Positions 1-17,068 of a DNA stretch of 64,000 bases are shown piece by piece; position 1 is the first letter of the stretch; each line of letters starts with the position of its first letter. The stretch is from assembly GCA_021202635.1 (NCBI GenBank), contig JAJQCQ010000079.1, positions 66,233-130,232 on the forward strand, in the 5' to 3' direction. The notes beneath the pieces are model-generated. The model had not been told where the DNA came from, did not search any database, and was given only the letters and a program-made list of their open reading frames with translations. The position numbers and the translations under genes were made by a program. The stretch is from Lachnospiraceae bacterium. Its GTDB lineage: Bacteria; Bacillota; Clostridia; Lachnospirales; Lachnospiraceae.

Positions 1-569
1 TGCCTACGCCGACACGCATCCAGCCTGCTTCCGCATCCGGCATTACCAGCCAGATTTCACCATTCTCACTGGTATAAGTGATCTCTACGACAGCCCCCGG
101 TACCAACGCTGCCAGTATTTCTTCCGTCATATCAAAGCCATCCTGTGACCAGCCGTCTCCGCTTGTCGCGAAGCCTTCAAAATTTACAAGGCCTTTGACA
201 GCCTTCATTTCCGCTGCTGTGCCGACCTTTACGCTGTATACCTCCCATGCGCCGGAGGCCTCGCACTGCATTCTTGCACCCCAGGTGCTGACATCATCGC
301 CACATACTGCCGCGATCTGCTCATAGGTGATCTGCGCGATGTTCGCGGAACCATTGTAGTACGCACTGTCGCTGCCGCTGCCGTCATAGTTGCCTACGCC
401 GACACGCATCCAGCCTGCTTCCGCATCCGGCATTACCAGCCAGATGTCGCCATTCTCACTGGAATAGGTGATTTCTACGACAGAACCCGGTACCAGCGCC
501 GCCAGGATTTCTTCCGTCATGTCAAAACCATCCTGTGACCAGCCGTCTCCGCTTGTCGCGAAGCCTTCG
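1..569. repeat. Tandem 390-bp repeat inside the secreted protein gene
   Basis: Positions 1-179 and 391-569 are nearly identical with only scattered changes, giving a period of exactly 390 bp (130 codons), so the frame is kept. The repeat codes for two copies of the Trp-rich module. Since the first copy reaches the window edge, more copies may follow to the left. Confidence 0.9.
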
Positions 570-1249
570 AACTCTACCGCGTCTGAAACTGCAAACAGGT
601 TCGAACGGTCTTCACCGGCAGCAGATACATACTCCGCTGTGGTGTCTGCCGCGAGTACGTTGCCGTCTGCGTCATAGAAGGTGATGTCATCGATATAGAA
701 GGTCGCCGCGTCATCCCCCTTGTAATCCTTACCCGTGTCATCCTCTACCGAAAGTACAAGGTAGCTGCCTGCTGTAAAGCTGAGTCCGTCGTCCGGGTCT
801 ACGGTGTAGCTGATGGTCTTCGGGTTGCCGCTCTCCAGATAGATGGACCACTCGGAATAATCCTTGCTCAGGTCCTCGCCCAGGAACGCGTAAATACAGC
901 CAGCCGCTGAATAAAACGTTCCGCCCGGGTTGGTCATGCCGATGGTCATTTCCACGGTGCTCAGCTCAGAGATCGCATCTCCTAACAGAGCGTCCACCTG
1001 GATCGCCACGTACTTCACGCTTGCGTCGGAAGCGATCTCCAGTGCTGTGGAACCATTGTAGTCCACCAGGGAAAGAGTCGCGTCTGCCGCCGCGCTGTTG
1101 ATCGTTTTGTCGTTGCCGACAAAGCCATACAGCCCGTCCTCAAAGTCGATACTCACTGCCGCGCTCTCCTCCGCGTAAACCGCGCCTGAGGAAAGTCCCA
1201 GTACCATTGCCGCTGTCATCGACAGCGCGATGATTTTTCTTGCCTTCAT
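1..1249 (-). CDS. Secreted repeat protein, probably carbohydrate-binding (3' end outside window)
   Basis: Reading is open from an ATG at 1249, preceded by a GGAGG site, to the window edge (416 codons, no stop), so the C-terminus is missing. Residues 1-26 form a signal peptide ending VYA-EE. Residues about 30-200 look like a beta-sandwich module ending in the YIDDITFYDADG pattern common in carbohydrate-binding domains. Residues about 226-355 form a module rich in Trp and Gly (SGDGW, GDIWLVMP, GWMRVG), and a second near-identical copy starts at about 356. Such aromatic-rich tandem modules usually bind polysaccharide. As last gene of an operon headed by a mannanase it may be a mannan-degrading or mannan-binding enzyme whose catalytic domain lies beyond the window. 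That role is inference; no catalytic motif is visible. Confidence 0.75.
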   Translation of the reverse strand, partial: MKARKIIALSMTAAMVLGLSSGAVYAEESAAVSIDFEDGLYGFVGNDKTINSAAADATLSLVDYNGSTALEIASDASVKYVAIQVDALLGDAISELSTVEMTIGMTNPGGTFYSAAGCIYAFLGEDLSKDYSEWSIYLESGNPKTISYTVDPDDGLSFTAGSYLVLSVEDDTGKDYKGDDAATFYIDDITFYDADGNVLAADTTAEYVSAAGEDRSNLFAVSDAVEFEGFATSGDGWSQDGFDMTEEILAALVPGSVVEITYSSENGDIWLVMPDAEAGWMRVGVGNYDGSGSDSAYYNGSANIAQITYEQIAAVCGDDVSTWGARMQCEASGAWEVYSVKVGTAAEMKAVKGLVNFEGFATSGDGWSQDGFDMTEEILAALVPGAVVEITYTSENGEIWLVMPDAEAGWMRVGVG

Positions 1250-1446
1250 CTCTTTTCCTCCTTTTTGGAAAAATATTTATGCAGGAAACGGCATCTTGCC
1301 ATCTCCTGTTGCGCCGGCCGCCGGATTCGGTTCCCTGACGGCCGTGTGCATCAATGTAATTACTGGATGCTCTCTGCTTCTCGTAAATAAATACACGGAA
1401 GCAGCCGGTCCCTGCTTTTACCGGTCTGGTATGCGAAGCACATTTT

Positions 1447-2502
1447 TTATCCAACGATACCGCTTCGCTCTACGCCCTCAATAAACTGCTTCTGCAGCAG
1501 GACATAGATAATCACAATCGGTATCATAACCAGCACAATACCCGCGTCCAGATACAGCTCCAGAATACTTGGGTCGTAGATCTTTTCCACGTTCGAGATC
1601 GACGCCTCAATGGTGGAGATTTTTTTACTGATAACAATGTTATCACTGATCAGAAACAGCTTGGCATAGAACGTATCGTTGTACTGCCATACCATCGAGA
1701 AGATCGCCACGGTGACGACCGACGGCAGCGCGTTGATCAGCATGATGCGGAAATACGTATACCAGATACCGCAGCCGTCCACGAGCGCCGCCTCTTCGAT
1801 TTCTTTCGGAAGCCCGTGGAAGAACTGGTTGAAAATATAAATATAAAGACCTGACCGCAGACCGCAGCCGAAGGCGGTCATGATATACATCGGAATCGGT
1901 GTGGACAGCAGGTTGACTGCCGAGCCGGTCACCGCCCTGATGATTCCAAAGACGTCAAATTTCGCGAATGTCATGTACAGCGGAAGCATGATCGTATTGG
2001 TAGGAATGACAATCATCACGACCACACAGCCGAAGAGGATTTTCTTAAACGGAAAATCAAACCGTGCGAATCCGTAGCCGACCATCGAGCAGACAAAGAC
2101 CTGAATCAGCATCAGCGACAGCGAATAAATCAGGGAATTCCGCATCGTTGTACTGTAATTCAGATACTGAAACGCCATCTTATAACGCTCCAGCGTCGGC
2201 TCCTGCGGGATCAGATACACCATCGGATTGTAGTAATCCGAGTTGGAGAAAAAAGAACTGCTGATGATACCCAGCACCGGACCGATGATGACATAGCAGA
2301 CGCCGACGATGAGGATCAGCTGAAATACAAACAGAACGAATTTTTTCAGATTCACAGCCCAGCGGGTCATGTCATTGACAAACTGCGCGTCCGAGGTAAA
2401 GCTTTTCAGCAGCTTCTCCGGAGAGCCGGACTTCTTCTGGCTCTTCGCGCGATTTCTTTTCTCCGCTTTTGCGTTCGCTTTGGCATTTGCACTTGCGCTC
2501 AT
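1447..2502 (-). CDS. Carbohydrate ABC transporter permease, MalG type
   Basis: 351-residue inner-membrane permease of the MalG/UgpE class. About six hydrophobic segments follow a long Lys/Ala-rich cytoplasmic N-terminus (residues 1-45) that is unusual for the family. The EAA loop that docks the ATPase reads EEAALVDGCGIWYTYFRIML near residue 235. It follows the partner permease (2521-3447) by about 20 bp and precedes the secreted repeat protein, so the three are probably co-transcribed. Substrate is not readable from the sequence; the locus suggests manno-oligosaccharides. No ATPase gene lies in the cluster. Confidence 0.93.
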   Translation of the reverse strand: MSASANAKANAKAEKRNRAKSQKKSGSPEKLLKSFTSDAQFVNDMTRWAVNLKKFVLFVFQLILIVGVCYVIIGPVLGIISSSFFSNSDYYNPMVYLIPQEPTLERYKMAFQYLNYSTTMRNSLIYSLSLMLIQVFVCSMVGYGFARFDFPFKKILFGCVVVMIVIPTNTIMLPLYMTFAKFDVFGIIRAVTGSAVNLLSTPIPMYIMTAFGCGLRSGLYIYIFNQFFHGLPKEIEEAALVDGCGIWYTYFRIMLINALPSVVTVAIFSMVWQYNDTFYAKLFLISDNIVISKKISTIEASISNVEKIYDPSILELYLDAGIVLVMIPIVIIYVLLQKQFIEGVERSGIVG

Positions 2503-2520
2503 TTCTTTTTCCTCCTCTCT

Positions 2521-3447
2521 TTAGTTATAGTAGAACGTCCGCTTCTGGATCCATCCGCAGACAATCACCAGAATCAGACAGGTAATCGCGGTGGAACAGA
2601 GGCTGAACACGGAGCTTAGTCCGTAGTTCATATCCGTAAAGGCTGTGGTATAGGCCAGATCAACCACCTCGGAATTCGTGAAGCTGTCTACGACCGTATA
2701 AACCACATTGGTCACAATGTGCGGCATGACCATCGGGAAGGTGACCTTCCAGAAGGTCTCATATGCCGTCGAGCCTTCGATCTTTGCCACCTCATAGAAG
2801 GAGGTCGGAATCGACTGCAGCGCCGCGATGAAAATGATGATCTGCACACCAGAGGCACTGACGATATCGCTGATCCGTGATACCGCACCGGAGACGTATT
2901 CGATCAGCACCTGCGGAATACCCAGGGAGGCAAACATCTGGATGTAATAGGCAATCCCTACGCCTCCGGAGGTTTCGGCCGCCATCTCCGCGCTGGCGCT
3001 GGTGATCCCGCCGCTCATCATGCTTCTGGCCAGATCCATCGCGTCCACGATGGCGCCGGAATTCAGAATCACCGGCAGGAAGAAGATCGCACGCACCAGC
3101 GTCCTGCCTTTAAACTTCTGATTGAGCAGCATCGCCATAAACAGGCTGAAAAACGTAATCAGAGGCACATCAATCAGCATATTTCCGATCGAGGTCGTCA
3201 GCACCTGCTTATAGGAGGCGTGCACGCGGAAGGCGTAAATATAATTCTCCAGTCCCACAAAATCCAGCGTATAGCCGCCGCCCGTCGCTACGGTCAGGTC
3301 GGACAGCGAAAACTGAACGGACATCACCAGGCTTCTGGCGTAGAACCAGATGAAACCAATCAGCCAGGGCAGGATAAAGATGAAGCCCACGATGCTGCGT
3401 TTTCTCGTCAAAGTCAGAAATTTCTTTTTCGTCTTCATCTCTCTCAC
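2521..3447 (-). CDS. Carbohydrate ABC transporter permease, MalF/LplB type
   Basis: 308-residue partner permease of the preceding MalG-type protein. Six or so transmembrane spans are visible, starting with SIVGFIFILPWLIGFIWF near residue 20. The EAA motif is YEVAKIEGSTAYETFWKVTF near residue 228. Its start overlaps the stop of the DUF5696 gene by four bases (ATGA), which points to translational coupling. It is more like the LplB/permease-I branch seen in Lachnospiraceae and Paenibacillus glycan loci than MalF of enterics (no long periplasmic P2 loop). Confidence 0.93.
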   Translation of the reverse strand: MREMKTKKKFLTLTRKRSIVGFIFILPWLIGFIWFYARSLVMSVQFSLSDLTVATGGGYTLDFVGLENYIYAFRVHASYKQVLTTSIGNMLIDVPLITFFSLFMAMLLNQKFKGRTLVRAIFFLPVILNSGAIVDAMDLARSMMSGGITSASAEMAAETSGGVGIAYYIQMFASLGIPQVLIEYVSGAVSRISDIVSASGVQIIIFIAALQSIPTSFYEVAKIEGSTAYETFWKVTFPMVMPHIVTNVVYTVVDSFTNSEVVDLAYTTAFTDMNYGLSSVFSLCSTAITCLILVIVCGWIQKRTFYYN

Positions 3448-6038
3448 ACCCCTTCCACCGTATAGCTTCTCGCCGGAACCTTTACTCCGTCTGCCGTCTC
3501 ATCCTTCGTACCGGTATTCACGTAAATCGTCACGCCATTGGAGTAAGTAACCGCCCGGACATTGCTGCTTAAAATTTCATGGCTGACAATCTCCGCGCCG
3601 TTGACATATTTCAGCGCCTCGTTGACTTCGTTGTAGACATACAGCGCGTCGTCCGACCAGGTACTGTAGGTGGTCGAATAGAAGTAATTCACACTGGTGT
3701 TTTTAATCTCACTGGACGACTGGTACGAGAACATATAGTGCGGAGAAGCGCCGTTCTCGATCAGGCTGAGGATAATATTCGTCTCGTCGCTGGTGTCGCT
3801 TAAGTTGATCACATCTCCGGAGTAATCGACATATCCGTGAAGCAGCATCGCATAGAACGGGACATCCTCATCGATGATGTAATAATCATTTCCGGTCAGC
3901 GGCACATTGATGATGTCATCCGCATAGCCGAAGGAGTAGTCATTCGCATTATTCAGCATCACGTTCTTTCCGGTCTCTTCGATTTCCGAAAGAGAGCCGA
4001 TCACGACATCGAGGGCCTCCTCACGGTCAATGACATTCGTCCGCTTCTTATCGGAATGCAGCTCGTTCGCGAGATCCCGAAGTGAGATGCCGCTGATGTC
4101 ATAATTCTCCATCTTTGATGTAAACGAGCTGATATAGCGCACCAGGAACTTCGGTGAAATCAGCGCGTACAGATTGGAGTTATATCCCAGCCCGGACGTC
4201 TGCCGGAGCGTCGTCGGATTCACCAGTCCAAAATCTACGATATAGCCGGAGCCATAGTAGCGGGAGCTCTCATTGCTGAACGAATAGCGTTTGCTGATCT
4301 CCGTTACCTTCTGAAAAGCCACATCAGCGTAGAAGGTACCGCCGCTCTCACTTAAGGCTTCACTTAATGCCTCCAGTGCGGACTTACTGCCCAGACTGGA
4401 AGGAATGTTGATCTGGTCGACGACACTGTGATAGTAGCCGCCATTCATCCAGCCCTGGAAGTTCAGCACCTGGTTCGTGATTCCGTTTGCCAGAAGATCC
4501 TCCGATATTTCCTGCGCCTGTTCAAACGTCGTCATCGCGTAAATGCCATTGTACTGCGCACCCAGAATATACTTTGTCATTGTCACGCCGCCCAGGATAT
4601 CATAATAAAATTTGATATCTTCTCCGGAAGCATCCTCCTGCGCAGTCAGGACACCCTCTTCCACCAGACGGTTCCGGTAATAATTTGCGGCACCGGAATA
4701 GCTTGCGTCGTCCTCGGTCAGCATCGTGTAGCGAATGGTCAGATTTGCGTCATAAAAGTCTGCTTCCACCACCGGAAGGTCTGCCTCATTGCCGGTCGTT
4801 CCGAACATGGAAAGCTTTTCATTTCCGCGCAGGACAAAGGTTGCGTAGACATAATTGTAGCTGTTGATCTTGCCGGACACACCCGCAGAGATATAAGTCA
4901 GGGAAGCGCCGTCCTCAATCGTCGCGAAAACTGCCGACTCCTCCCGGAACAGCCCGAAGAGCGCCATTTTCGCATTCTCCGTATTTTCCATCACCGTGTA
5001 CTCCGCCATCAGCGGGTCAATGCCGTAGACATATTCGGAATAGTTGGCGACCGAGGTCCCGTTTTTGCCATTGTTAAAATAAATCAGGGAACCGGAGCCG
5101 TTCGGCACCAGCATATAGCCGTCCTCTTCTGTTCCGGCCGCGCCAAAATACCGAAGCATCTGAATGCGGTAAATCGAGCCGCCGCCGTTCTCCACCACCT
5201 CACTCATCGGAATGGTTGCTTCTACGCCATCATTTACCAGGCGGTATTCCAGCGGGATTTCAAAGGAAATTGGCACCGCGCCCTCGATTCCGGAGCCTTC
5301 CATCTCACGAAGATAGTCTTCTTCGGTAAACCCGGCCTCCTCGAAATATTTGTTCAGCTTTCGAAGCTGAGAAGCACCCTTTTTCGCGGACTCCAGCAGC
5401 TCCAGATAGCCATCCGCCAGCCCATCCGTCGTGCCGGTGGTGTACTTCTTTGCTACCTCCTTCGCGTCATCCTCCGAAAGCTTCGACATGACATCATTCA
5501 GCGTCTCTTCGCTGATGTATTCCGGCACCAGACCAGTTGAGGAAGACATATCACCGATGGTATAGATAAAACGGATGCCGTCCTCAAGCGACTCGACCTC
5601 CAGCTGCCCCAGAGATGTGCAGTAAGTGTAGGAATCGTAGGTACCGGTTGTTCTTGATGTATTGTAATAATCCACGATCAGCTGCGATCTCATGTAATTT
5701 TTGTTTGTCTCATTCGCGACCGCATCCTCATCCACGCCCACCGGATTGGAATAGGTAATCTCGCCGTTGCGCTTATCTACAATGGCAACCTCCCCGGACT
5801 CCGTATTCGCGTAAAGCTTCAGCGTGTCATTCTCGGCCGCCAGCACCATTCCCTCTACATCACTCTCTTCCTCCGAAAGGGATGTGAATTCCACGCCCTC
5901 CTCATAGTCATAAGAGGTCAGGTAATCCCGGTAGACATTGTAAGAATAGTAATGAAAATACCACCATCCCAGCAGCGAAGCCGCCGTAATCAGGACGATT
6001 CCTATCAGACCGAGAAGGATTTTTCTGCTCTTGCTCAT
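3444..6038 (-). CDS. DUF5696 domain protein, membrane-anchored extracellular
   Basis: 864 residues. An N-terminal hydrophobic segment (about 8-28, ILLGLIGIVLITAASLLGWW) without a lipobox acts as signal or anchor; the rest is hydrophilic, with many Ser, Tyr, Asp and Asn, as expected outside the cell. The family, as I recall it, is found next to sugar ABC permeases in Firmicutes and has no proven function. Residues about 440-720 (TMTKYILGAQYNGIYAMTTF onward; FQGWMNGGYYHS) resemble a TIM-barrel glycosidase-like fold, so a glycan-processing or glycan-holding role at the membrane is possible, but I see no certain catalytic pair. The four-base overlap with the following permease argues for a stoichiometric partner of that transporter. 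Confidence 0.85.
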   Translation of the reverse strand: MSKSRKILLGLIGIVLITAASLLGWWYFHYYSYNVYRDYLTSYDYEEGVEFTSLSEEESDVEGMVLAAENDTLKLYANTESGEVAIVDKRNGEITYSNPVGVDEDAVANETNKNYMRSQLIVDYYNTSRTTGTYDSYTYCTSLGQLEVESLEDGIRFIYTIGDMSSSTGLVPEYISEETLNDVMSKLSEDDAKEVAKKYTTGTTDGLADGYLELLESAKKGASQLRKLNKYFEEAGFTEEDYLREMEGSGIEGAVPISFEIPLEYRLVNDGVEATIPMSEVVENGGGSIYRIQMLRYFGAAGTEEDGYMLVPNGSGSLIYFNNGKNGTSVANYSEYVYGIDPLMAEYTVMENTENAKMALFGLFREESAVFATIEDGASLTYISAGVSGKINSYNYVYATFVLRGNEKLSMFGTTGNEADLPVVEADFYDANLTIRYTMLTEDDASYSGAANYYRNRLVEEGVLTAQEDASGEDIKFYYDILGGVTMTKYILGAQYNGIYAMTTFEQAQEISEDLLANGITNQVLNFQGWMNGGYYHSVVDQINIPSSLGSKSALEALSEALSESGGTFYADVAFQKVTEISKRYSFSNESSRYYGSGYIVDFGLVNPTTLRQTSGLGYNSNLYALISPKFLVRYISSFTSKMENYDISGISLRDLANELHSDKKRTNVIDREEALDVVIGSLSEIEETGKNVMLNNANDYSFGYADDIINVPLTGNDYYIIDEDVPFYAMLLHGYVDYSGDVINLSDTSDETNIILSLIENGASPHYMFSYQSSSEIKNTSVNYFYSTTYSTWSDDALYVYNEVNEALKYVNGAEIVSHEILSSNVRAVTYSNGVTIYVNTGTKDETADGVKVPARSYTVEGV

Positions 6039-6053
6039 CTTTTCTCCTCCCCC

Positions 6054-6686
6054 TTATGTTCTGAAAATCAGTTCCTGATAGATGCTGTAGAAGAAGCTGT
6101 ATACCTCACTGACCAGATCCGCCATCAGCAGAATGATAAAGATAATGATCAGCATGGCTACAAACGTCAGGAAAATCGTGATGAGTGTCTTCCCCAGCGT
6201 GAAGTTCTGCACAGTCATAATCCCCATCAGCATCATAATCAGCCCGTAGGCAATCCCAATGGCCAGAACCATCCAGTAAAACGCTTCCTCCCCATCCGCC
6301 ACAAACAGGCTGAGGAGCGTCGCCAGGTTAAAGCAAACAATCATCGGTGTCATCGCGTAGCCTATCGCGGTCGCAATGTCCTTCATACGTCCCTCGCCTT
6401 CCATCAGGCAGGTGATTGACCAGTTACTTACGCAGAACAGCAGATACAGAAGCAGGACCGCTCCCAGCTCGGTCAGACTGTTCACCGTTCTCGGGTCCGT
6501 GTCATTGACCACGAAGCTTGCCAGCAGACGGTTCGCGGAAAAGCTGAAGGAGAACAGAATCACCAGCACAACCGCGATCGGCACGCTTCCGCGCCCGCGG
6601 TGGCGGATCTCATAGTAGGCGTCCATCGGGTGGCTCACCGTATAAAAGGCATATTTCCATTTTTCAGCTGAAAATAATCCAGACAT
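6054..6686 (-). CDS. YIP1-family integral membrane protein
   Basis: 210 residues with five predicted membrane segments (for example SVPIAVVLVILFSFSFSA, near 34-51, and TLITIFLTFVAMLIIIFIIL near the C-terminus). The layout fits bacterial YIP1/Yip1-like proteins. The start ATG follows directly on the TAA stop of the NHL-protein gene (TAAATG), so the two are translationally linked. In this context it is likely an assembly or partner subunit of the NHL protein or the neighbouring permeases; this is inference from position only. Confidence 0.8.
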   Translation of the reverse strand: MSGLFSAEKWKYAFYTVSHPMDAYYEIRHRGRGSVPIAVVLVILFSFSFSANRLLASFVVNDTDPRTVNSLTELGAVLLLYLLFCVSNWSITCLMEGEGRMKDIATAIGYAMTPMIVCFNLATLLSLFVADGEEAFYWMVLAIGIAYGLIMMLMGIMTVQNFTLGKTLITIFLTFVAMLIIIFIILLMADLVSEVYSFFYSIYQELIFRT

Positions 6687-8201
6687 TTACGCAAGCCCTC
6701 CTTCCTGTGATTTTGGTTTCTTTCGCTTTTTTAATACCTGCCGGATCACAACCCAGATCACAATCAGAGCCACCAGAGCGGTCAGAATGCCGCCTATATT
6801 CTCTGTCAGAATCTCATTTCGGTATCGTTTCCAGGCAATGGAATAATACTTCTGGTTCATGCCGAGCTTTAAATATTTCATCGCCAGCTGATTCTCCCCG
6901 GCGGTCAGATAGGCCTTGCCGATACCGGTGTTCGCCAGCTCATTGTTCTCATCGAGCTCCAGCACCCGCTCCCAGAGCGCCACGGCCTGCGTCTCATCGC
7001 CGTCGTAACGCAGCCCGGTCGCCTCGTTGATCAGCGAGCCGTATTCCGTCGCTGAGAAAATCATAATCGAGCCATAATACGCGTCCAGGACAATCAGGCT
7101 GTCGCCAATTTCATCAATCGCAATCGGTGTATTAAACGTGCCCTCCTGGGTTCCCAGACCGCCGAAGATATAGAGCAGGTTGCCCTCCCGGTCATAGGTG
7201 AAAATACGTCCGCGCTTGCGGTCCAGTACCGAATAGATGCCCTTGCCGCGGTAGGTCACATCTGTGAATTCCGATACGCCCGCATAGGTACCATACGTAC
7301 CGGTCGTCAGGTCGCCCCCGACGTTTCCGTTTTCCCCTTTCTGGATGACGTCCTCACCGCTTGGGTTCAGCCGCCGTACTCCCTGCTCCCCGTCTGAATC
7401 GATGTTGGACGCGTAGACAAAGCCGTCTTCATCGACATCGATGCCGGTAAATTCGGTCGGGATATAAAGCTGCTGGTTCGCGCGCTCTTCCTTGCTCGCC
7501 AGTCTTCTCCAGAACTTCTCCCAAAGGGTAATCTTTACTTCAATGGTGCCAAAATAACCGATAAAGGAGCCTTCACTGTCAAACACCAGAATTCCCTCAA
7601 ACGCATTTTTGGCGATGACATAGATTCGATCCGCATAATCGACCGCCACCTTCAGCGGGATAAAATCGAACCCCTCCTCAAGTATGTTCGACTGCGGATT
7701 ATCTACAATCTTGACAAACTCGCCTTCCGTGGTCAGTACAACAATCCGCTTGTTGTTGGAATCGGCCACGTAAAGATCCCCGTTTTCTGAGACAAACACA
7801 CCATAGGGAGCATTAAAGGTATCCTCTTCCCCGTCGCGCTCAAAGGTCTCAATCACCCGCACCACCTCATCCATATCGGAATTGAGGATCACGACACGGT
7901 TGTTCCCGGTGTCCGCCACATAGACCTGACCGTCCTCTGCCACATAGAGATCCTGCGGCTCGGAAAAGTTCCCGATTCCAAGGGAATCTCCCGTCACAGA
8001 GCCGTTTGGCACGTAAGGAGCCGGGGTATACACAATATCATTCCAATACGTGTAATTGTAAGAGTCATACGGCAGTTCATCCGCCAGCGCCTGCAGCGGC
8101 GTCAGAACCAGGATCAGCAAAGCGGAAAACAGGCAGAGGATTCTGCTTTGAAAACCGCGCCGCGGGCGGGACGTGTTATGCAATTTCTTTTTTACGCTCA
8201 T
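6687..8201 (-). CDS. Secreted, membrane-tethered NHL-repeat beta-propeller protein
   Basis: 504 residues. A signal peptide covers residues 1-40 (cut after LQALA). NHL repeats fill about 75-385, with the recurring pattern F..P.gv.v...G.lYVADs.N.Rvvvl (VYVADTGNNRVVIL, LYVADSNNKRIVVL). Residues about 395-465 look like a TPR hairpin pair (AVALWERVLELDENNELANT). A single span, ILTALVALIVIWVVI, near 475 is followed by a basic tail KKRKKPK, giving an outside propeller and inside tail. NHL propellers mostly bind proteins or glycans. Lying between two permease pairs, it may be a surface receptor or scaffold for the importer. No enzyme motif is seen. Confidence 0.85.
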   Translation of the reverse strand: MSVKKKLHNTSRPRRGFQSRILCLFSALLILVLTPLQALADELPYDSYNYTYWNDIVYTPAPYVPNGSVTGDSLGIGNFSEPQDLYVAEDGQVYVADTGNNRVVILNSDMDEVVRVIETFERDGEEDTFNAPYGVFVSENGDLYVADSNNKRIVVLTTEGEFVKIVDNPQSNILEEGFDFIPLKVAVDYADRIYVIAKNAFEGILVFDSEGSFIGYFGTIEVKITLWEKFWRRLASKEERANQQLYIPTEFTGIDVDEDGFVYASNIDSDGEQGVRRLNPSGEDVIQKGENGNVGGDLTTGTYGTYAGVSEFTDVTYRGKGIYSVLDRKRGRIFTYDREGNLLYIFGGLGTQEGTFNTPIAIDEIGDSLIVLDAYYGSIMIFSATEYGSLINEATGLRYDGDETQAVALWERVLELDENNELANTGIGKAYLTAGENQLAMKYLKLGMNQKYYSIAWKRYRNEILTENIGGILTALVALIVIWVVIRQVLKKRKKPKSQEGGLA

Positions 8202-8216
8202 TCCATCCCCTCCCGT

Positions 8217-9137
8217 TTATTCTTTCATACCGGAGGTCGTCATCGTCTCCAGTACGTTGCTCTGACAGATCAGGAAGAAAGAGATCGGCACAATCGCGAT
8301 GATAAAGGTCACCGCAGCGGCCGCACCCGCTCTTGCTGTTCCGCCGGCCGAAATCTGCTGCAGCGCGTATTGCAAAGGCTTCAGCTGCTCATCCCGGAGA
8401 AACAGACTTCCTGTATTGCCCCACATCTGCTGGAACTGGAAAATCGCCAGTGTCAGCCAGGCCGGTTTTACGTTCGGCATCACAATGCTCCAGAAAATTC
8501 TCCATTCACTTGCGCCGTCCAGCCGGGCCGACTCCAGCAGGGCATCCGGGATCTGTTCCATGAACTGCTTCATCAGATACAGGCCCATGCCATAAGCGAA
8601 CGCCGGCAGAATCAGCGCCGCGTAGGTGTTGTTGATGTGCAGCCAGCTGATGATCAGATATTGCGGAATCTGAGTCACCTGCCAGGAGAACATCATAGAG
8701 AGCACGACCGCAGAGAACAGAATGTTCTTTCCCGGAAAATCACGCTTGGCCAGCGGATAAGCTGCCAGGGAGGCAAAAAGGACGTGTCCGACCATTCCTC
8801 CGCCGGTAATGATGATCGTATTCAGTATGTATCTCGAAAACGGCACCCAGGAATCATTCATGATCACAAACAGATCGACAAAATTATCCAGGGACGGGTT
8901 CCGCACAAAAATCTTTGGCGGATACTGAAACAGCTCGTCCAACGGCTTTAAGGCATTGTTGATAATCATAACCAGCGGCAGCGCCATGAAGACGCCGCAG
9001 ATCGCCATGATCACAAACAGCAGCGAGTTCCCGGCCACCGAGCGGTTCAGCTTTTTCTCTTTCGGCCGCTTCCAGAATGGAATCTTACGGAGATTTTTTT
9101 TGAGGGCAGCCTCTTCGGAAGTTCTTGCTCTGCTCAT
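8217..9137 (-). CDS. Carbohydrate ABC transporter permease, MalG/UgpE type
   Basis: 306-residue permease of the second transporter pair. Six spans are seen, beginning NSLLFVIMAICGVFMALPLV near residue 39. The EAA loop reads LESARLDGASEWRIFWSIVM near residue 200. Its start overlaps the stop of the partner permease by four bases (9134-9137). The two permease pairs of this locus are not close copies of each other, so they are probably two different importers or an assembly of four membrane subunits. Confidence 0.94.
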   Translation of the reverse strand: MSRARTSEEAALKKNLRKIPFWKRPKEKKLNRSVAGNSLLFVIMAICGVFMALPLVMIINNALKPLDELFQYPPKIFVRNPSLDNFVDLFVIMNDSWVPFSRYILNTIIITGGGMVGHVLFASLAAYPLAKRDFPGKNILFSAVVLSMMFSWQVTQIPQYLIISWLHINNTYAALILPAFAYGMGLYLMKQFMEQIPDALLESARLDGASEWRIFWSIVMPNVKPAWLTLAIFQFQQMWGNTGSLFLRDEQLKPLQYALQQISAGGTARAGAAAAVTFIIAIVPISFFLICQSNVLETMTTSGMKE

Positions 9138-10168
9138 TCGCCTACCCTCCTTAATACTTTCTGTACCAGCTTATTCGTGCCGACCATCATCAGAAACAGC
9201 ACGGTCGCGATCGCGGAGGCGTACCCCATCTCAAATCGCGTCGAACCGTAATCCATCAGATGAGTCACGACCGTCGCGCCCGCGTAATTGACCGACGGAT
9301 TGCCCGCCAGCTGGATGGAAATATCCACTACGGCAAAGGACTGTGTGATCTGCATGACGGCGCCGAACATCAGCTGCGGCTTCATCGCCGGAAGTGTCAC
9401 ATACCAGAGCTCCTGCCAGCGGTTCTTGATACCGTCGAGCGCAGCGGCCTCATAAAGGTTCTTATCTACCGTCTGCAGACCGGCAATGAAAGACAGGAAG
9501 CCGGTACCCAAAGACAGCCACAGCTGCACGACAATCAGCACCGGCAGCACATACTTTTCTGTTTTCAGCCAGCTGATGGCCTCATCGATCACGCCCAGCC
9601 GCAGAAGAATACCATTCAGGTAGCCATAGCGGTCGCCGGTCAGAATCAGGTTCCACACCATATAGGCGTTGCCGCAGATGCTCGGCGCGTAGAAAATCAG
9701 CGTCAGGAAGGTACGCAGGGGGCCCTTAAAATCATTGATAATCCACGCGAACAGCAGGCAGAGAAGATAACTGATCGGTCCTGTGATCACCGCAAAAATC
9801 AGCGTGTTCTTCAGTGCGATCATGAAGATGTCATCTTCCAGAAACAGCTTGATATAATTGTTCCAGCCGTTGAATGTCGGCATTTCCAGCATATTGAAGT
9901 AAGTAAAGCTCAAGACGATCGACATCACAACCGGCAGCACCGTAAACAGGAAAAACAGGATAAAATACGGTGCCAGCATCGCGTAGCAGGTCTTATTTTT
10001 TTTGATCTGGTAGCGAAGCGTCTTTTGCTTTGCCGCGATCTGGGCAGCGTCGTCGAAACGCGCAGCGTTTTCTGCATCGGCGACGCGACCTGCCGCCGAG
10101 CTTTTGCGAGGGGGCGTTTCCACTTCATTGGATACAGCCGCAGAACCCGGGTCACTCGTTCCACTCAT
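9134..10168 (-). CDS. Carbohydrate ABC transporter permease, MalF/UgpA type
   Basis: 344 residues from the chosen ATG at 10168 (MSGTSDPG), which has an AAGGAG site eight bases upstream; the open frame continues upstream but would run into the 3' end of the binding-protein gene without a better site. A hydrophilic N-terminus of about 65 residues precedes six spans (CYAMLAPYFILFFLFTVLPV). The EAA motif is YEAAALDGIKNRWQELWYVT. Partner of the permease at 8217 and of the binding protein at 10233. Confidence 0.93.
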   Translation of the reverse strand: MSGTSDPGSAAVSNEVETPPRKSSAAGRVADAENAARFDDAAQIAAKQKTLRYQIKKNKTCYAMLAPYFILFFLFTVLPVVMSIVLSFTYFNMLEMPTFNGWNNYIKLFLEDDIFMIALKNTLIFAVITGPISYLLCLLFAWIINDFKGPLRTFLTLIFYAPSICGNAYMVWNLILTGDRYGYLNGILLRLGVIDEAISWLKTEKYVLPVLIVVQLWLSLGTGFLSFIAGLQTVDKNLYEAAALDGIKNRWQELWYVTLPAMKPQLMFGAVMQITQSFAVVDISIQLAGNPSVNYAGATVVTHLMDYGSTRFEMGYASAIATVLFLMMVGTNKLVQKVLRRVGE

Positions 10169-10232
10169 ACTCTCGTTCTCCTTCCCCTTGCGTTTCACCG
10201 CCATTTTCAGATGGCCGGTGAAACGCGACCGT

Positions 10233-13200
10233 TTAATCTGCCACCGACAATCCCAGCTCGGTGCGTTTATAGGTAATCTCCGCATTGATGTAGAGTACCT
10301 TGTCCATCAGTTCCTCCCGCGGCGAGGCCGTATCCAGGTTCGTCACTACCGTGTAGAAGGCGTTATACACATTTCTCCACGAATAGTAGCCGCCCGGCAC
10401 CTGCGGGATGCCGTCCACCCATTCGAAGGCAGCCTTCAGCGCCTCCATGTCGTCGATCGGCCACGCCATGTTTTCAAAGGCCTCCAGGTTTGCGGTCGGC
10501 ACACGCGCGGCCGAACCCATCAGACTCTCCATTTCACGTCCATACTGTGTCTGGACATCTGCGGACGTCCACCACTTCAGAAACTCCCAGCATTCCTCCG
10601 GATAGTCCGTGCTCGCCATAATCATACTCGCCAGACCGGTGCAGGCCACACTGTGATCAACCGTACCGTCCTCCTGCTCAGTACCCGGAATCTGCGTGAA
10701 ACTCCAGAGACCGTCGATATCCGGCGCGGATACGACAAGATTGTTGTAAACCGTATAGTCGGCGATCATGATCGGACATTCTCCGGTACGGAACCGCTCT
10801 TCTACGCTCGTCTCATAGTCCAGGCCGTAGTCTGTGTAGTATTCACAGAATTCCTTAAAGACATTCACTGCCGTGTCGGAATCCAGTGCGGAAGCCGTGC
10901 CGTCCTCCGAGTAATAAGAACCGCCATACTGGTAAAGCAGGGAAGCAAAAAGCTGTTCAGTCGGAAGCATACCGAATTCCATCTGGTTCTGCGCAAGCAC
11001 CGTCATCACGACCTTCACGTCATCCCAGGTCTCCGGCACCTCCAGTCCCAGCTCCGCCAGAATATCTTTCCGGTAGAACATCACCGGGAAGGTAGTCGTC
11101 TCCGGCAGTGCGTATGTCGCACCTTCAAACTGCAGCGACTCCATGGCCGCGTCAGAGAAACGCTCCGTCACCTCCTCCAGATCATCAAACTGGGAAAGGT
11201 CCAGCACAGCGTTGCGAATCCCATAGTTGACCGGCGTATCATTGCCTGTGTTCAGAACCGCCCCGGCGACACCATTCGTATTCGCCACCTGAATCGCGAC
11301 GTCAGGGCCCTCTCCGGCAAGCTCCGCCTTTAAGAGTGTACTCATATCTACCAGCTGAACGTTTACATTGATGTTGTACTCACTGGTAAAGGTCTCATCA
11401 ATCATGGACTTAATCACGTTTGCCTGGTCCCGGCCGGTACCGATCCACAAAGTGATGGTCGCACCCTCGTCTGAGTTCTCCGCCACATTGCCGATCTGAT
11501 TGTAGTCGATGACAAACGAATAATACAGGCGGCTGCACTCATACACAACTCTGTCAAGAATCGATGTATTCTCATAGGTAATCGTCTGATCCGCCGAATA
11601 TATATTGATGCGGTCGATCGCCAGCGGCTGTTCGATTACCTGGGTAATCCAGTTGCCGCAGGCACGGACATTCGTCTTATAGGAGCTGATCGTCCGCACG
11701 AAATACTCCGCGTCATCGATCAGATCATCCAGCTGATCCCGCATCGTGATCAGAACCGTCTCTTTATCCGACTTTTCTCCGATCAGTGCTTCGAGCGCCT
11801 CAATCGCCGCATCCAGCTGATCCCGCACGGCTACCAGCTCATCGTGCAGACCCGGCAGAGTACTCTCAATCTGGTAGTCACGGTAGGTATCCGGCGACAC
11901 GCCAGTGATCTTGATGATCTCGCGGTAAATGCTGTTCAGCTGTGTCACGCAGTCCTGTACCTCGCTGATAATGTCTGAGAAATCGCCCAGTACCACCTCC
12001 ATGCGGATCGTGTGATGCCCTTCTTCTAAATAGAAGGAATAGGCATTCCCCTCCTCATCAGAGAGCACATCCTCCCGCCAGCTGGAGCTATAGGTGAAGC
12101 CGTAGGATTCCATCTCGGAAAACGGCACTTCCCCGTCAATCGTGATCCGCCGCGATACATAAATGCCCCGCACAGTATTCTGTGCGTCATAGAGCGAGAT
12201 ATTGTAATAACCACTCTCCGGCACGTCAAATTCCCATTCAATCCACTGCCCGACCAGACGCCAGGAATTGCCGCCGATGGTATTGTTCAGCAGCTCCTTC
12301 GCGCTCGAAGGGGATACGGACGGAGAGGACTGATCCTGAACCGGATAAAGCATCTGAGAGGAAGACTTTGTCGCATTTTCACCCTCAATCGTGATGCTGA
12401 CACCCGATGTAGCCTGCGCACCAGCCGCATCCTGCTCCGCCTTTACTTCCTCATAGGAAGCCGTTTCTTCCGTCTTACAGAAGGTGATCGAGTGAACCAC
12501 CATCGGTTCACGCTCAGACAAAAGCGAAAGCGTATGCTCTCCCTCGGTCAGATAAACCGTCAGAGGAGAGGTGATATAACCATCGCTGTCATAGACATAG
12601 CTGCTGATCCATTCCGGTGCTTCTGTCATGCTCGGCTTGTTGTCGTTGCCCTGGTTATCCTTGCCCCATTCGTAGGTAGCGGAGCCGCTCTCATCCGGCT
12701 CGCCCTCCTCTGCATCGTAAACCCATACGCGGTTGAAGGAAACCAGCGCCAGCTCCTCATACGGCAGCTCGCCATCGATAAAAATCGCACGTTCAATCGA
12801 TGAGCCCTTCCCCTCAATGGGATAATACTCCAGAACCATGCTGTAGAAGCCCTCTTCTTCCACCGTAAATGTAAACTCCGCCAGAGAATCCTCGCTCGTA
12901 TATACGCTGTCCCCTTCCAGACCTTCATAATCCGTGTAAATCACCGGATCAACGGTCTCATCGGACTCATCGTAGCGCTCCAGGTCATCTGCCGTCACGA
13001 CAATCTCGGTATCCGGGTAGACCTCGTCATACATTGTCAGATATTCCTTGTAACCCGGAATGGAGTCGTCCACGGTGTAGGTGCTGACAAGCTCGTCAAA
13101 CTCATCCATCGTCATGTTGGTCGCCGCAGTATTCGTCGCAGCCATCATGGAAAATACCAGCACTCCGACCAGCATATGAAGCAGTCTGGACAGTCTGCGA

Positions 13201-13295
13201 TTTCTGTAGATAGCCGCAGGCCGCCTCCGTTTTCCGGAAAACACGGCGGATGCCGTGCGCCTGCTTGTTTTAGGAACTGCCATAGAAGATGCCAT
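10233..13295 (-). CDS. Giant sugar-binding protein fused to N-terminal carbohydrate-binding-like modules
   Basis: 1020 residues, more than twice a normal family-1 solute-binding protein. A basic N-terminus is followed by one hydrophobic segment (about 36-56, LLHMLVGVLVFSMMAATNTA) without a lipobox Cys, so it is secreted or held by this segment. Two jelly-roll-like modules follow at about 95-280 and 300-440; both carry the patterns FTVEEEGFYSMVLEYYPI and FDVPESGYYNISLYDAQ and end with TIR or HTLSL strands. A helical linker spans about 440-590. Residues about 605-1020 form a type-1 binding protein (TITLWIGTGRDQ, GPDVAIQV, TTFPVMFYRKDILAELGL, ECWEFLKWWTS). It presumably feeds the permeases at 9134 and 8217. 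Start chosen for AAAGGAAAGGG upstream. Confidence 0.9.
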   Translation of the reverse strand: MASSMAVPKTSRRTASAVFSGKRRRPAAIYRNRRLSRLLHMLVGVLVFSMMAATNTAATNMTMDEFDELVSTYTVDDSIPGYKEYLTMYDEVYPDTEIVVTADDLERYDESDETVDPVIYTDYEGLEGDSVYTSEDSLAEFTFTVEEEGFYSMVLEYYPIEGKGSSIERAIFIDGELPYEELALVSFNRVWVYDAEEGEPDESGSATYEWGKDNQGNDNKPSMTEAPEWISSYVYDSDGYITSPLTVYLTEGEHTLSLLSEREPMVVHSITFCKTEETASYEEVKAEQDAAGAQATSGVSITIEGENATKSSSQMLYPVQDQSSPSVSPSSAKELLNNTIGGNSWRLVGQWIEWEFDVPESGYYNISLYDAQNTVRGIYVSRRITIDGEVPFSEMESYGFTYSSSWREDVLSDEEGNAYSFYLEEGHHTIRMEVVLGDFSDIISEVQDCVTQLNSIYREIIKITGVSPDTYRDYQIESTLPGLHDELVAVRDQLDAAIEALEALIGEKSDKETVLITMRDQLDDLIDDAEYFVRTISSYKTNVRACGNWITQVIEQPLAIDRINIYSADQTITYENTSILDRVVYECSRLYYSFVIDYNQIGNVAENSDEGATITLWIGTGRDQANVIKSMIDETFTSEYNINVNVQLVDMSTLLKAELAGEGPDVAIQVANTNGVAGAVLNTGNDTPVNYGIRNAVLDLSQFDDLEEVTERFSDAAMESLQFEGATYALPETTTFPVMFYRKDILAELGLEVPETWDDVKVVMTVLAQNQMEFGMLPTEQLFASLLYQYGGSYYSEDGTASALDSDTAVNVFKEFCEYYTDYGLDYETSVEERFRTGECPIMIADYTVYNNLVVSAPDIDGLWSFTQIPGTEQEDGTVDHSVACTGLASMIMASTDYPEECWEFLKWWTSADVQTQYGREMESLMGSAARVPTANLEAFENMAWPIDDMEALKAAFEWVDGIPQVPGGYYSWRNVYNAFYTVVTNLDTASPREELMDKVLYINAEITYKRTELGLSVAD

Positions 13296-13320
13296 CTTTC
13301 CCTTTCCTTTCTGTAGATTC

Positions 13321-14103
13321 TTATATATCGTGCTTCCTGTTTCTTACTGGTTTATCCCTCACTCCCGGACTGCCCTCCTGCGAAAATCCTTTTTGTCCGT
13401 CATGCGGGTCTTTTGTCTTTTTCGTTTTTTTCGCCTTCTCTGATTTTCCGGTCTCATAGTACCAGGCGTCCCTGGCCAGTCCCTCTTCCGGCTTCGGCAT
13501 ATATGCAAGCAGTGCCGGTTCCACCATAAAAGTGATCACCAGGCACCAGAGCCCCGGCACAAACAGGATACAGGGCATCGGCAGAACATAAAACTGCAGC
13601 CAGGCAATCCCCGCTGTCCCCACCATAATCACCACCGTGCAGGGCAAAAAACGGATACACATCAGAAACGCCAGCTTCCAGCAGTTCATCAGTTTCATCT
13701 CAAACCGTGAAAATACCGGAAATACATAAACCGCCACTCCGGCGCTTACCAGCATCAGCACGTGATAAACCGTCACCATATGCGACCGCTCATTTACCTG
13801 CGAATATCGCCGCCCCAGATAAAGCAATCCAAACCAGATCGCAATCTCCAGGGTCAGCAGAATCCCCTTTTTCATCGTGCGCCTCATCGAGCCAAAGTAC
13901 TCCCCCACCGGAGTACCGCGCTGCCGCCGGATGCTCTTGATCGTCGCGTAATAAAACGAAGTCAGTGCAGAACCGATGGTAACAATGGGAATGCAGCTGA
14001 TAAGAAAGAGGATGTTCACCAGAATCAGTTCCCCTGCCCTGCCGAGCAAATCCATAAATTTCCCGTCCCAGCTAAAAAAGGCGTCCAGTTTTTTTCGCAT
14101 CAT
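13321..14103 (-). CDS. yesL: YesL-family (DUF624) membrane protein
   Basis: About 260 residues from an ATG pair at 14103/14100 (the frame is open further upstream but with no better site). Four to five spans; the N-terminal block WDGKFMDLLGRAGELILVN followed by SCIPIVTIGSALTSFYY is the DUF624/YesL signature. YesL proteins accompany pectin and other glycan ABC importers in Firmicutes; their function is unproven. The C-terminus is a Lys/Ser-rich cytoplasmic tail. It lies between the mannanase and the binding protein. Confidence 0.85.
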   Translation of the reverse strand: MMRKKLDAFFSWDGKFMDLLGRAGELILVNILFLISCIPIVTIGSALTSFYYATIKSIRRQRGTPVGEYFGSMRRTMKKGILLTLEIAIWFGLLYLGRRYSQVNERSHMVTVYHVLMLVSAGVAVYVFPVFSRFEMKLMNCWKLAFLMCIRFLPCTVVIMVGTAGIAWLQFYVLPMPCILFVPGLWCLVITFMVEPALLAYMPKPEEGLARDAWYYETGKSEKAKKTKKTKDPHDGQKGFSQEGSPGVRDKPVRNRKHDI

Positions 14104-14178
14104 GCTTCCAGCTTTCTTATTAATTAATAACGATTCAGAACAGCAGGCCACAAATCTGCGCTTAGAGCCGCCTTCTGG

Positions 14179-15723
14179 TCAATTATCCCGAATCGGATAG
14201 GCTGTCAGATCCGGCAGCTCGTCGAGTGTGAGAACCACGTCGCTCTCGTACGCCTTAACGAGCATCTCACTCTCTGTATACTGGTCGTTGTAGGCGTAAA
14301 TCGACATGCTTTTTGCGACAAACTCGCTTCCCCAGGTACACCAGAACCCCCACATCGCTCCGTCGCGCACCGCAAGCTCCGGATCAAAGACACAGCCATT
14401 CTCTGAGAGTACCACCATCTTCGCCGGGCTGGTGTAATTCACTGCCCGCAGGTAGGTGTCCACCTGCGAAGTGTACACATGCTCGCCCGGATAAATGTCC
14501 TCACCGATGATATCCACATATTCATCGCCCGGGTACCATTCGGCGTCCTGCCCGTTCCACAGCCAGATCAGGTTATTCAGGCCATATACGTTCGTCAGCT
14601 GATCGTAGAGTAAAATGTAGAGCTGCTTATACGCTTCCGCGCCCGAGGCGCCCCACCAGAACCAGCCGCCGCTCGCCTCATGCAGCGGACGCCACAGGAC
14701 GGGCACCCCCGCATCCTGTAAAATCAGAAGCTGTTCTGCGATCGCCGCTATGTCATCCAGCAGAAGCTGATAGCCTTCCTCATCCTCGCCGTTCATGATT
14801 GCCGCGAGGTCAATATTGGTGCCTTCCACGTAAAAGCCGTTGTACCACTCGCCGGTCAGATATTTTGTCGGCGCGTTCCAGTGCCAGCAGAATGTCACAA
14901 TCCCCCCGTTCTCCCAGAACTGGATTGCGTACTGGGTCGCATTCGAGGTACTGCCGTTCTCCGCCCTTGAAGGGGAATATTCAATGAAATCAAGTCCAAG
15001 AATTGCCGGGTATTTACCTGTCTCCCGGTAGACCACTGTGAATTCCTTTCCGTACTGCCCGTCCTCGGAATACTGTCCGGAAAGGATCGAGCTGCCGTAA
15101 TTGTCCGCCAGAAAGCTCATCAGCCGCTTCGCGTTGTCCGTCGCATTCTCATTGACAAGCGCCGCAGACACCTGATATATCGAAGAATCGATCACTTCAG
15201 ATGGGGTGACCTCCAGACGGTCCAGATACACCCATCCCCAATATTCTGCATAAGTGATCTCATGCATCCCCGCTGCGAGGTACGCCCGCTGCAGGATGGA
15301 ATCCGTAAAGGATTCCTCTTCTATACTGACCGTGCCGAGGTTTTCCCCGTCCACGAGCACATAATTCTCTTTGTAGCCGCCCATGCTGGCAGTCACAAAA
15401 TTCAAATCGTAAAAGCCGTCCGCATCCACAGACACCGTAAACGTGCAGGCGTCGCCCTCTGCGGCAAAACCTGTGACATAGCCGTCGCCCTCATAGCCGG
15501 ACACCTGTGTATCTGTATGTACACTGCCCTCACAGAGCGCATCTTCTGCCTCATAGACCTGAGTGTTTTCCACGTCTTCTGTCAGCACACCCGTCTCCGG
15601 GGAAGCTTCCTCCACGTCTTCTGTCAACGCATTCCCTTCTGTCAGTTCCTCCGCCATCACCACAGAGGACGACAGTATCACCGCGAACAGACTCGCGATC
15701 CCGCACCAAACATATCTTCTCAT
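14179..15723 (-). CDS. Secreted GH26 beta-mannanase with N-terminal CBM35-like module
   Basis: 514 residues. Signal peptide 1-24 (VVMA-EE), then an acidic linker, a CBM35-like module at about 55-170 (QVYEAEDA, GYVTGF, GFYDLNFV, YLDRLEV), then a GH26 barrel from about 195. The acid/base is Glu349 in WRPLHEASGGWFWWG and the nucleophile is Glu441 in VVLSENG; both are in the expected GH26 contexts. The enzyme cuts beta-1,4-mannan outside the cell. As first gene of the operon, with a promoter and palindrome upstream, it sets the likely substrate of the locus. Exo or endo mode cannot be told. Confidence 0.93.
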   Translation of the reverse strand: MRRYVWCGIASLFAVILSSSVVMAEELTEGNALTEDVEEASPETGVLTEDVENTQVYEAEDALCEGSVHTDTQVSGYEGDGYVTGFAAEGDACTFTVSVDADGFYDLNFVTASMGGYKENYVLVDGENLGTVSIEEESFTDSILQRAYLAAGMHEITYAEYWGWVYLDRLEVTPSEVIDSSIYQVSAALVNENATDNAKRLMSFLADNYGSSILSGQYSEDGQYGKEFTVVYRETGKYPAILGLDFIEYSPSRAENGSTSNATQYAIQFWENGGIVTFCWHWNAPTKYLTGEWYNGFYVEGTNIDLAAIMNGEDEEGYQLLLDDIAAIAEQLLILQDAGVPVLWRPLHEASGGWFWWGASGAEAYKQLYILLYDQLTNVYGLNNLIWLWNGQDAEWYPGDEYVDIIGEDIYPGEHVYTSQVDTYLRAVNYTSPAKMVVLSENGCVFDPELAVRDGAMWGFWCTWGSEFVAKSMSIYAYNDQYTESEMLVKAYESDVVLTLDELPDLTAYPIRDN

Positions 15724-15839: not shown

Positions 15840-15886
15840 GTAACTTAATTGAGTTACAGTATAGCGGAAACGCGGTCTTATGTCGT
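15840..15886 (-). promoter_or_regulatory. Candidate promoter and operator palindrome for the mannan operon
   Basis: On the minus strand ACGACA (15881-15886) and TATACT (15858-15863) are 17 bp apart, a plausible -35/-10 pair. Immediately downstream, covering the expected start point, lies an 18-bp near-perfect palindrome at 15840-15857 with arms GTAACT and AGTTAC and one mismatched pair. That placement suits a repressor site. The untranslated leader to the mannanase start would be about 130 bases. Confidence 0.5.
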
Positions 15887-16151
15887 TACAGTTTTGTGCG
15901 ATATATCATTTATTTGTGCGTTTATTTGGCAATTTCGGCTATATGAACAAAGTTTTTGTGTCCAATTTGTGAATTATTACTATTCATTATTTTCGTGTTT
16001 CGTTTTCAGTCAGACACTTTTCCATCTGATGTTAGTTAACAAAAATACGCTTGTTAACCATAGACTTTCCGCTATTTTTGTGATAGACTTTTTTCGGTTC
16101 CACAGGAAAACGAATCGCTCTGTGATAACGATAAGAAATGAGAGTTCAGAT

Positions 16152-16742: not shown

Positions 16743-16753
16743 AAATCAAAGGT

Positions 16754-17068
16754 GTGTTCGATATGGCGTATTCAGAAGAACACTCTATCACAGAGCTGGC
16801 TGCCGGGGCCGGAGTCAGCCGCTACCGCCTCAGCCGGGAGTTTTCTGAGTATTTCGGGCAGACGCCCGTCCGCTATCTGAACAGCGTCCGCCTCTCGCAC
16901 GCCTGTACACTGCTGGAAACCACGAATCTGCACGTCCATGAGATCGCCTCCGCCGTCGGCATCGACAGTGTCACGCATTTTATCAACCTCTTCAAGGCAA
17001 AGACCGGGATGACCCCGGCGACGTACCGGGACAGCTATCACGCATTCCGGGATTCCGAACCGTCCTGA
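16754..17068 (+). CDS. AraC-type regulator, C-terminal DNA-binding part (frameshifted gene)
   Basis: Second half of the split AraC gene, in the frame one base behind the first. It holds both helix-turn-helix motifs: SITELAAGAGVSRYRLSREF and VHEIASAVGIDSVTHFINLF, followed by the hallmark KAKTGMTPATYRDS. A GTG at 16754 could start it, but no convincing ribosome site precedes it, and the frame is open back through the C-run. Alone it could bind DNA but would lack the sensor. Confidence 0.8.
   Translation: MFDMAYSEEHSITELAAGAGVSRYRLSREFSEYFGQTPVRYLNSVRLSHACTLLETTNLHVHEIASAVGIDSVTHFINLFKAKTGMTPATYRDSYHAFRDSEPS

Follow-up and report, generated by a model that had tools for sequence, protein, structure and literature searches.

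The window, a stretch of 64,000 nucleotides from a Lachnospiraceae bacterium (assembly GCA_021202635.1, contig JAJQCQ010000079.1 of 184,983 bases; closest named relatives Lachnospiraceae metagenome-assembled genomes), carries on the minus strand of positions 1-15723 eleven genes, the last of which is truncated by the window edge, and these encode a GH26 protein with a CBM35 domain, a DUF624 (YesL) protein, a 1020-residue solute-binding protein (SBP1), two pairs of BPD_transp_1 permeases (P1A and P1B, P2A and P2B), an NHL protein, a Yip1 protein (YIP1), a DUF5696 protein (PF18952), and a CBM65-repeat protein (Table 1). Eight of these, namely the CBM-fused solute-binding protein of about 1000 residues, the first permease pair, NHL, YIP1, DUF5696, and the second permease pair, form a conserved core, and the set is a variant of the type I carbohydrate ATP-binding cassette (ABC) importers that is undescribed as far as the searched open literature shows. 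A first-pass annotation of the sequence had described an eleven-gene set on one strand, four-base overlaps or direct abutment at several joints, and an importer without an ATPase gene, all of which is borne out: the families are matched in Pfam on the minus strand, four-base overlaps occur at two joints (P1A/P1B and DUF5696/P2A), NHL and YIP1 abut directly, and none of the eleven proteins matches an ABC ATPase family. Five other joints are gaps of 15-27 bp, the CBM65 gene is preceded by 197 bp, and the open reading frames (ORFs) of SBP1 and P1A overlap by 53 bp when the first start is assumed.

Table 1. Genes of the importer operon and its divergent neighbour (TM, transmembrane segment)
Feature	Coordinates	Strand	Evidence
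GH26 glycosidase, N-terminal CBM35 (accessory, substrate-specific)	14179..15723	-	Pfam 238.1 and 71.2 bits, above cut-offs
YesL/DUF624 membrane protein (accessory)	13321..14151	-	Pfam DUF624 37.8 bits (cut-off 24.2); limited range
SBP1, 1020 residues	10233..13295	-	Pfam SBP_bac_8/1; PDB sequence match 5ysb, 4e-17; model and fold search
Permease P1A (MalF-like), true start probably internal	9134..10285	-	Pfam BPD_transp_1; EAA-like loop; orthologous clade
Permease P1B (MalG-like)	8217..9137	-	BPD_transp_1; own clade; EAA-like loop
NHL propeller and TPR ectodomain, signal peptide, C-terminal TM (468-486)	6687..8201	-	Pfam NHL 56.2 bits
YIP1 protein, five hydrophobic segments	6054..6686	-	Pfam Yip1 54.3 bits
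DUF5696: N-terminal anchor (7-25), GH129-fold ectodomain (about 65-864), pseudoglycosidase candidate	3444..6038	-	Pfam 630.2 bits
Permease P2A (MalF-like)	2521..3447	-	BPD_transp_1; own clade; EAA-like loop
Permease P2B (MalG-like)	1447..2502	-	BPD_transp_1; own clade; EAA-like loop
Secreted CBM65-repeat protein, cut by window edge (accessory)	2..1249	-	Pfam CBM65_1 142.3 bits, 2 stretches
AraC-type HTH, divergent, likely regulator	16754..17068	+	Pfam HTH_18 83.1 bits

Past the window edge (L002), the CBM65 gene continues and is followed by a second solute-binding protein (SBP2; 449 residues with a twin-arginine signal), a LacI regulator, and a GH5 gene, so that one operon holds two solute-binding proteins for two permease pairs. 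The combination of glycosidases, importer, and regulator (GH26, GH5, CBM65, the solute-binding proteins, the permeases, and LacI) is that of a Gram-positive glycan utilisation locus. A run of unknown bases within the CBM65-repeat gene (L002 16121-17482, overlapping the window start) is an assembly gap among similar repeats, and the divergent AraC-type regulator (15849-17068) seems to be broken into two ORFs, the 15849-16742 part of which has no Pfam match.

DUF5696 was found in 90 of 391 sampled genomes of the class and in 37 of 398 sampled genomes of the phylum, in searches that scored at most three candidates per genome (at most four in the NHL search of the class), so that copy numbers are lower bounds. 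Stretches of up to 20 kb were taken around 100 class matches, 20 phylum loci, and 33 loci of named relatives, the last drawn with the single DUF5696 protein of the window as query. The set of 138 loci with a long DUF5696 excludes L002, 13 loci of a short form (L120-L132), and L047, L175, and L184, which have no uncut long form; it includes the window's own locus (L003), near copies, and a few overlapping stretches, and comprises 114 nonredundant loci. The order SBP1-P1A-P1B-NHL/YIP1-DUF5696-P2A-P2B occurs in a row on one strand in 100 of the 138 loci and in 87 of the 114 (class 70/87, phylum 10/20, named relatives 20/31), and many of the remaining 38 are truncated at contig or stretch ends or disturbed by ORF picking. 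DUF5696 is followed directly by a permease gene in 137 of 138 loci; in 133 it is preceded by NHL, YIP1, or a fusion of the two, and in three others it lies at an edge. The departures taken as real are a swapped block order in L145, L149, and L151 (the latter two also contain a short ORF that was not recognised), a moved P1B in L071 and L072, the absence of a nearby SBP1-P1 block in L138, L139, and L143, and a P2B that was not found in L114 and L117, which belong to one genome; L051, L070, L076, and L152 also deviate and are not counted among these. The same order is present, according to the NCBI annotation in PLSDB, on plasmid pNP243 of Butyrivibrio fibrisolvens D1 and on a plasmid of Paenibacillus cellulosilyticus (L207), in which one 720-residue YIP1 protein replaces two genes. 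Several core genes of L047 are fragmented.

The association was also examined in reverse with an NHL profile (E <= 1e-25) against the class genomes, giving 101 NHL rows and 102 long-DUF5696 rows, short forms and second pieces being omitted. The 101 NHL matches lie in 77 of 391 genomes and 50 of 223 genera, and for 97 of them a long DUF5696 follows closely on that strand; three of the other four (L190, L191, and L192) have DUF5696 on reading, and the remaining one, G012, begins 113 bases short of the end of its contig. Conversely, six of the 102 long DUF5696 genes lack an NHL match, all of them at contig ends (L042, L087, L193, and L194 as read, two by coordinate). Chance or an annotation artefact is ruled out by the recurring core order and this co-occurrence. 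The first-pass annotation had linked YesL, YIP1, NHL, and DUF5696 with the permeases, took this to suggest one complex, and proposed looking for a conserved order, with YesL and the CBM-fused solute-binding protein, across Firmicutes; the link and the order hold for NHL, YIP1, DUF5696, and the order with SBP1, but not for YesL, which is accessory and of limited range. Scattering of homologues away from permeases, which it had named as evidence to the contrary, is absent for the long DUF5696 and NHL, while the 13 short DUF5696 proteins do lie apart.

The four permeases fall into four separate clades (42 loci), in which the A types group together and the B types together. Co-inheritance of the parts is seen in the distance matrices of SBP1, DUF5696, and the four permeases, which correlate at 0.85-0.94 over 84 loci, with NHL and YIP1 omitted and without a species-tree control. 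An EAA-like coupling loop is found at a shared column in P1A (100/100), P1B (100/100), P2A (128/130), and P2B (130/130), with a strict first E in 88, 98, 128, and 110, respectively; paired permeases with this loop, together with a solute-binding protein (SBP_bac_8 at 74.2 bits in SBP1, 46.2 bits for SBP2), are hallmarks of type I carbohydrate ABC importers. SBP1 consists of an N-terminal hydrophobic segment, a CBM35/6-like domain (about 96-275), a second beta-sandwich (about 300-435), a helical part (439-554), and the solute-binding domain (about 610-1013; low model confidence).

NHL and YIP1 are fused in 47 of 138 loci, as judged by length and position; the two profiles overlap owing to the fusions, and the parts were therefore separated by length. 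NHL, TPR, and Yip1 were matched by Pfam in a single chain in all five fusions checked, and all 52 nonredundant NHL proteins encoded apart from YIP1 have a C-terminal TM. The DUF5696 tree, drawn for 87 nonredundant loci of which 32 are fused and 55 separate, needs no fewer than 10 changes between these two states, compared with a shuffle mean of 26.2, indicating several fusions or splits that are clustered by descent. In L177 (6539-9298) and L178 (6568-9303), the NHL protein exceeds 900 residues, nearly double the normal length, and YIP1 remains a gene of its own. Defence-system models gave no match for NHL, YIP1, or DUF5696.

DUF5696 is a membrane-anchored ectodomain of GH129 fold. Residues 65-864 share the fold of the GH129 enzymes NagBb (5wzn) and ZgGH129 (5opq), by which a fold of unknown kind is ruled out, and an N-terminal hydrophobic segment is present in 86 of 87 long forms. 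The catalytic acid pair of NagBb, which we take to be D435/E478 (positions counted on the alignment), corresponds to D655 and N696 in the window protein, and both positions are acidic in 17 of 113 long, transporter-linked proteins, with an acid at the second position in no more than 29. Among the acids, E761 is the best conserved (95% D or E), and it lies at neither catalytic position. The long DUF5696 beside permeases is, judging from these residues, probably a catalytically dead pseudoglycosidase. The 13 short stand-alone proteins (e.g., L121:5825-7516), which lie away from permeases, retain the GH129-type acid pair in 13 of 13 cases, with the E761 equivalent kept beside it, and have the look of a soluble glycosidase family that still goes by a DUF name. 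DUF5696 is interrupted in L037 by two opposite-strand ORFs (a possible insertion element), and in L204 (2-6163) it lies within a 2054-residue open frame running off the stretch, a possible further fusion.

An operon without an ATPase is ordinary for such importers, since their ATPases are shared and since a UgpC-type ATPase gene immediately precedes SBP1 in two relatives, namely L061 (460.5 bits, cut-off 432) and P. cellulosilyticus (463.9 bits). An ATPase common to several importers is known in Bacillus, as described in PMC5730181. An ATPase lies directly upstream in four of the 138 loci, most having none, and the best MalK-like gene in the window's genome (C101, E 3.5e-108) adjoins its own permeases, with weaker ones elsewhere. 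In L080 and L082, the gene immediately before SBP1 encodes an ATPase of LolD/MacB rather than MalK type, and an ATPase of similar size takes this place in L086.

GH26, YesL, and CBM65 are accessory and stand outside the core. A core role of YesL is ruled out, its profile matching only the window, L052, and L055 (same family) and named relatives, although that profile was built from those same sequences and a remote DUF624 could escape it. In L159 (1906-5670), YesL and SBP1 share one 1254-residue frame, which is either a natural fusion or a sequencing slip. Given the specificities of their families, GH26-CBM35, GH5, and CBM65 point to a beta-mannan or beta-glucan substrate. Downstream neighbours were surveyed in a random 85 of the 133 without a profile match, among the 25 best of 96 families: solute-binding proteins are commonest (14 SBP_bac_1), GH5, GH10, GH35, GH42, GH94, GH130, and pectate lyase occur once or twice each, and unrelated proteins, homoserine O-succinyltransferase (5) among them, are also found. 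The surroundings of L138 and L143 include GH106 and an apiosidase. Given these variable downstream enzymes, the core looks like a chassis with changing enzymes. In P. cellulosilyticus (L207), the importer's neighbours include several LLM flavin oxidoreductases together with an NADPH-dependent oxidoreductase, and its substrate may be a sulfosugar or another non-glycan compound.

The solute-binding proteins of the MsmX-type systems of B. subtilis are presumably ordinary ones. These systems (YtcQP-YteP and YesOPQ) resemble the present operon in having a solute-binding protein with two MalFG-like permeases, a common ATPase, and plant-wall glycans as substrates, but they have one permease pair each, and the passages of PMC5730181 that describe them name no NHL, YIP1, or DUF5696 partner, whereas the present operon has a second pair and these partners. 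In Corynebacterium glutamicum, MusI (DUF624) is encoded beside the maltose importer MusEFGK2I and is needed for uptake; the YesL protein here differs in scoring 85.8 bits against NCBIfam MusI_fam, below its cut-off of 160, and in lying outside the conserved core. The passages of PMC10101108 on this system name the Mus transporter, not MusI. DUF5696 shares the fold of NagBb and ZgGH129 and differs from them in its mostly lost acids, its N-terminal anchor, and its fixed link to permeases. A further, possible likeness is to 4F2hc/rBAT, anchored subunits whose inactive glycosidase-fold ectodomain sits beside a transporter; DUF5696 has the N-terminal hydrophobic segment, the fold, and the lost acids, and a physical link to a permease is proposed for it. 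The fold is GH13 there and GH129 here, the partner an animal secondary transporter there and an ABC system here, and homology of the transporters is not claimed. In the open-access literature, whose silence does not prove absence from print, no paper was found on DUF5696, on YIP1 with an NHL repeat and ABC permease or with a solute-binding protein and permease, or on the role of DUF624/YesL; the YIP1 passages of PMC13206771 concern human YIPF5.

That the core is a functional unit is very likely. The operon would serve polysaccharide uptake around a conserved eight-protein import machine, with inward flow the presumed direction. As SBP1 carries CBM35/6-like domains, these are proposed to hold glycan at the surface, and its solute-binding domain would pass the oligosaccharide to the P1 pair, with SBP2 serving the P2 pair and both MalFG-like pairs powered by a common MalK/UgpC/MsmX-type ATPase encoded elsewhere. 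The NHL-TPR part outside and YIP1 in the membrane would act as one unit scaffolding or gating the permeases, and DUF5696 may be a glycan-binding or gating ectodomain beside them, by analogy with the dead amylase-fold subunits 4F2hc/rBAT. One physical assembly of this kind, proposed from gene content and predicted domains, has in our judgement slightly better than even prospects. The fuller proposal of a single ABC import supercomplex of two permease heterodimers, an NHL-YIP1 scaffold, and a GH129-derived pseudoglycosidase, an ABC-type counterpart of 4F2hc/rBAT widespread in Firmicutes, is more tentative and less likely than not. Several points weigh against the assembly model itself: conserved order can arise from co-regulation alone; beyond the class, the usual order is seen in only half of the loci read; the DUF5696 model is of middling confidence (pLDDT 67.6, pTM 0.66), and several of its barrel loops fall under 50; the 17 long DUF5696 proteins that retain both acids become 31 of 113 when the acids may be displaced by a few residues; and the Paenibacillus cluster, with flavin oxidoreductases and no annotated glycosidase, suggests that "glycan" may be too narrow. 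The halves of the core can also separate, as only 30 of 66 NHL genes lie near SBP1 in ten genomes picked since they or close kin had second-half-only or swapped loci (SBP1 pieces merged by hand, one NHL fragment of 119 bits omitted).

The presence of SBP2 in the operon makes two separate importers, without a supercomplex, a live alternative, in which SBP1, P1A, and P1B would form importer A and SBP2, P2A, and P2B importer B, with NHL, YIP1, and DUF5696 belonging to B only. The 36 NHL genes without a neighbouring SBP1 in the ten genomes indicate that half B (NHL-YIP1, DUF5696, P2A, and P2B) can stand alone, which makes this a serious rival, and it is consistent with the B-type loci without A nearby (L138, L139, and L143; L142 is cut by a contig end and not counted), with an ordinary solute-binding protein just downstream in L138, with the swapped blocks of L145, L149, and L151, and with a second solute-binding protein directly after P2B in 20 of 85 class loci by profile (13+3+2+2) and in others by Pfam. 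However, A and B occur together in the 100 loci of usual order, and even in the ten picked genomes 30 of 38 SBP1 genes stay near NHL (24 in usual order, 6 swapped); of four stretches read there, L202 and L203 have the full order, L204 runs from SBP1 through P1A, P1B, NHL, and YIP1 to DUF5696 before ending, and L205 is cut within NHL. We regard two separate importers as rather unlikely. NHL-YIP1 and DUF5696 might instead be biogenesis or stability factors for the permeases, outside the working transporter, as would suit the strict order, the scaffold-like appearance of NHL-TPR and YIP1, and the importance of rBAT for the maturation of its transporter, reported in passages of PMC9110406; a large glycosidase-fold ectodomain beside a CBM-fused solute-binding protein suggests substrate handling, and we regard such a role as improbable. 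It is more improbable still that DUF5696 here is an active glycosidase trimming glycan at the permease mouth: the GH129 fold, the retained D655, and the 17 intact pairs favour activity, but N stands at the place of the second acid in the window protein, few of the other long forms are acidic there, and E761 lies outside both catalytic positions and is retained by the short forms in addition to the acid pair.

To our knowledge, the SusCD outer-membrane machines of Bacteroidota are absent from Firmicutes, whose uptake of large glycan fragments is only partly known. The importer described here, with two channels and two dedicated membrane partners, is present in roughly one in five of the class genomes sampled (77/391 with the NHL part) and would offer a testable component of fibre use in the gut and rumen. 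With it, DUF5696 gains a fold and a likely role, and bacterial YIP1 proteins gain a concrete partner.

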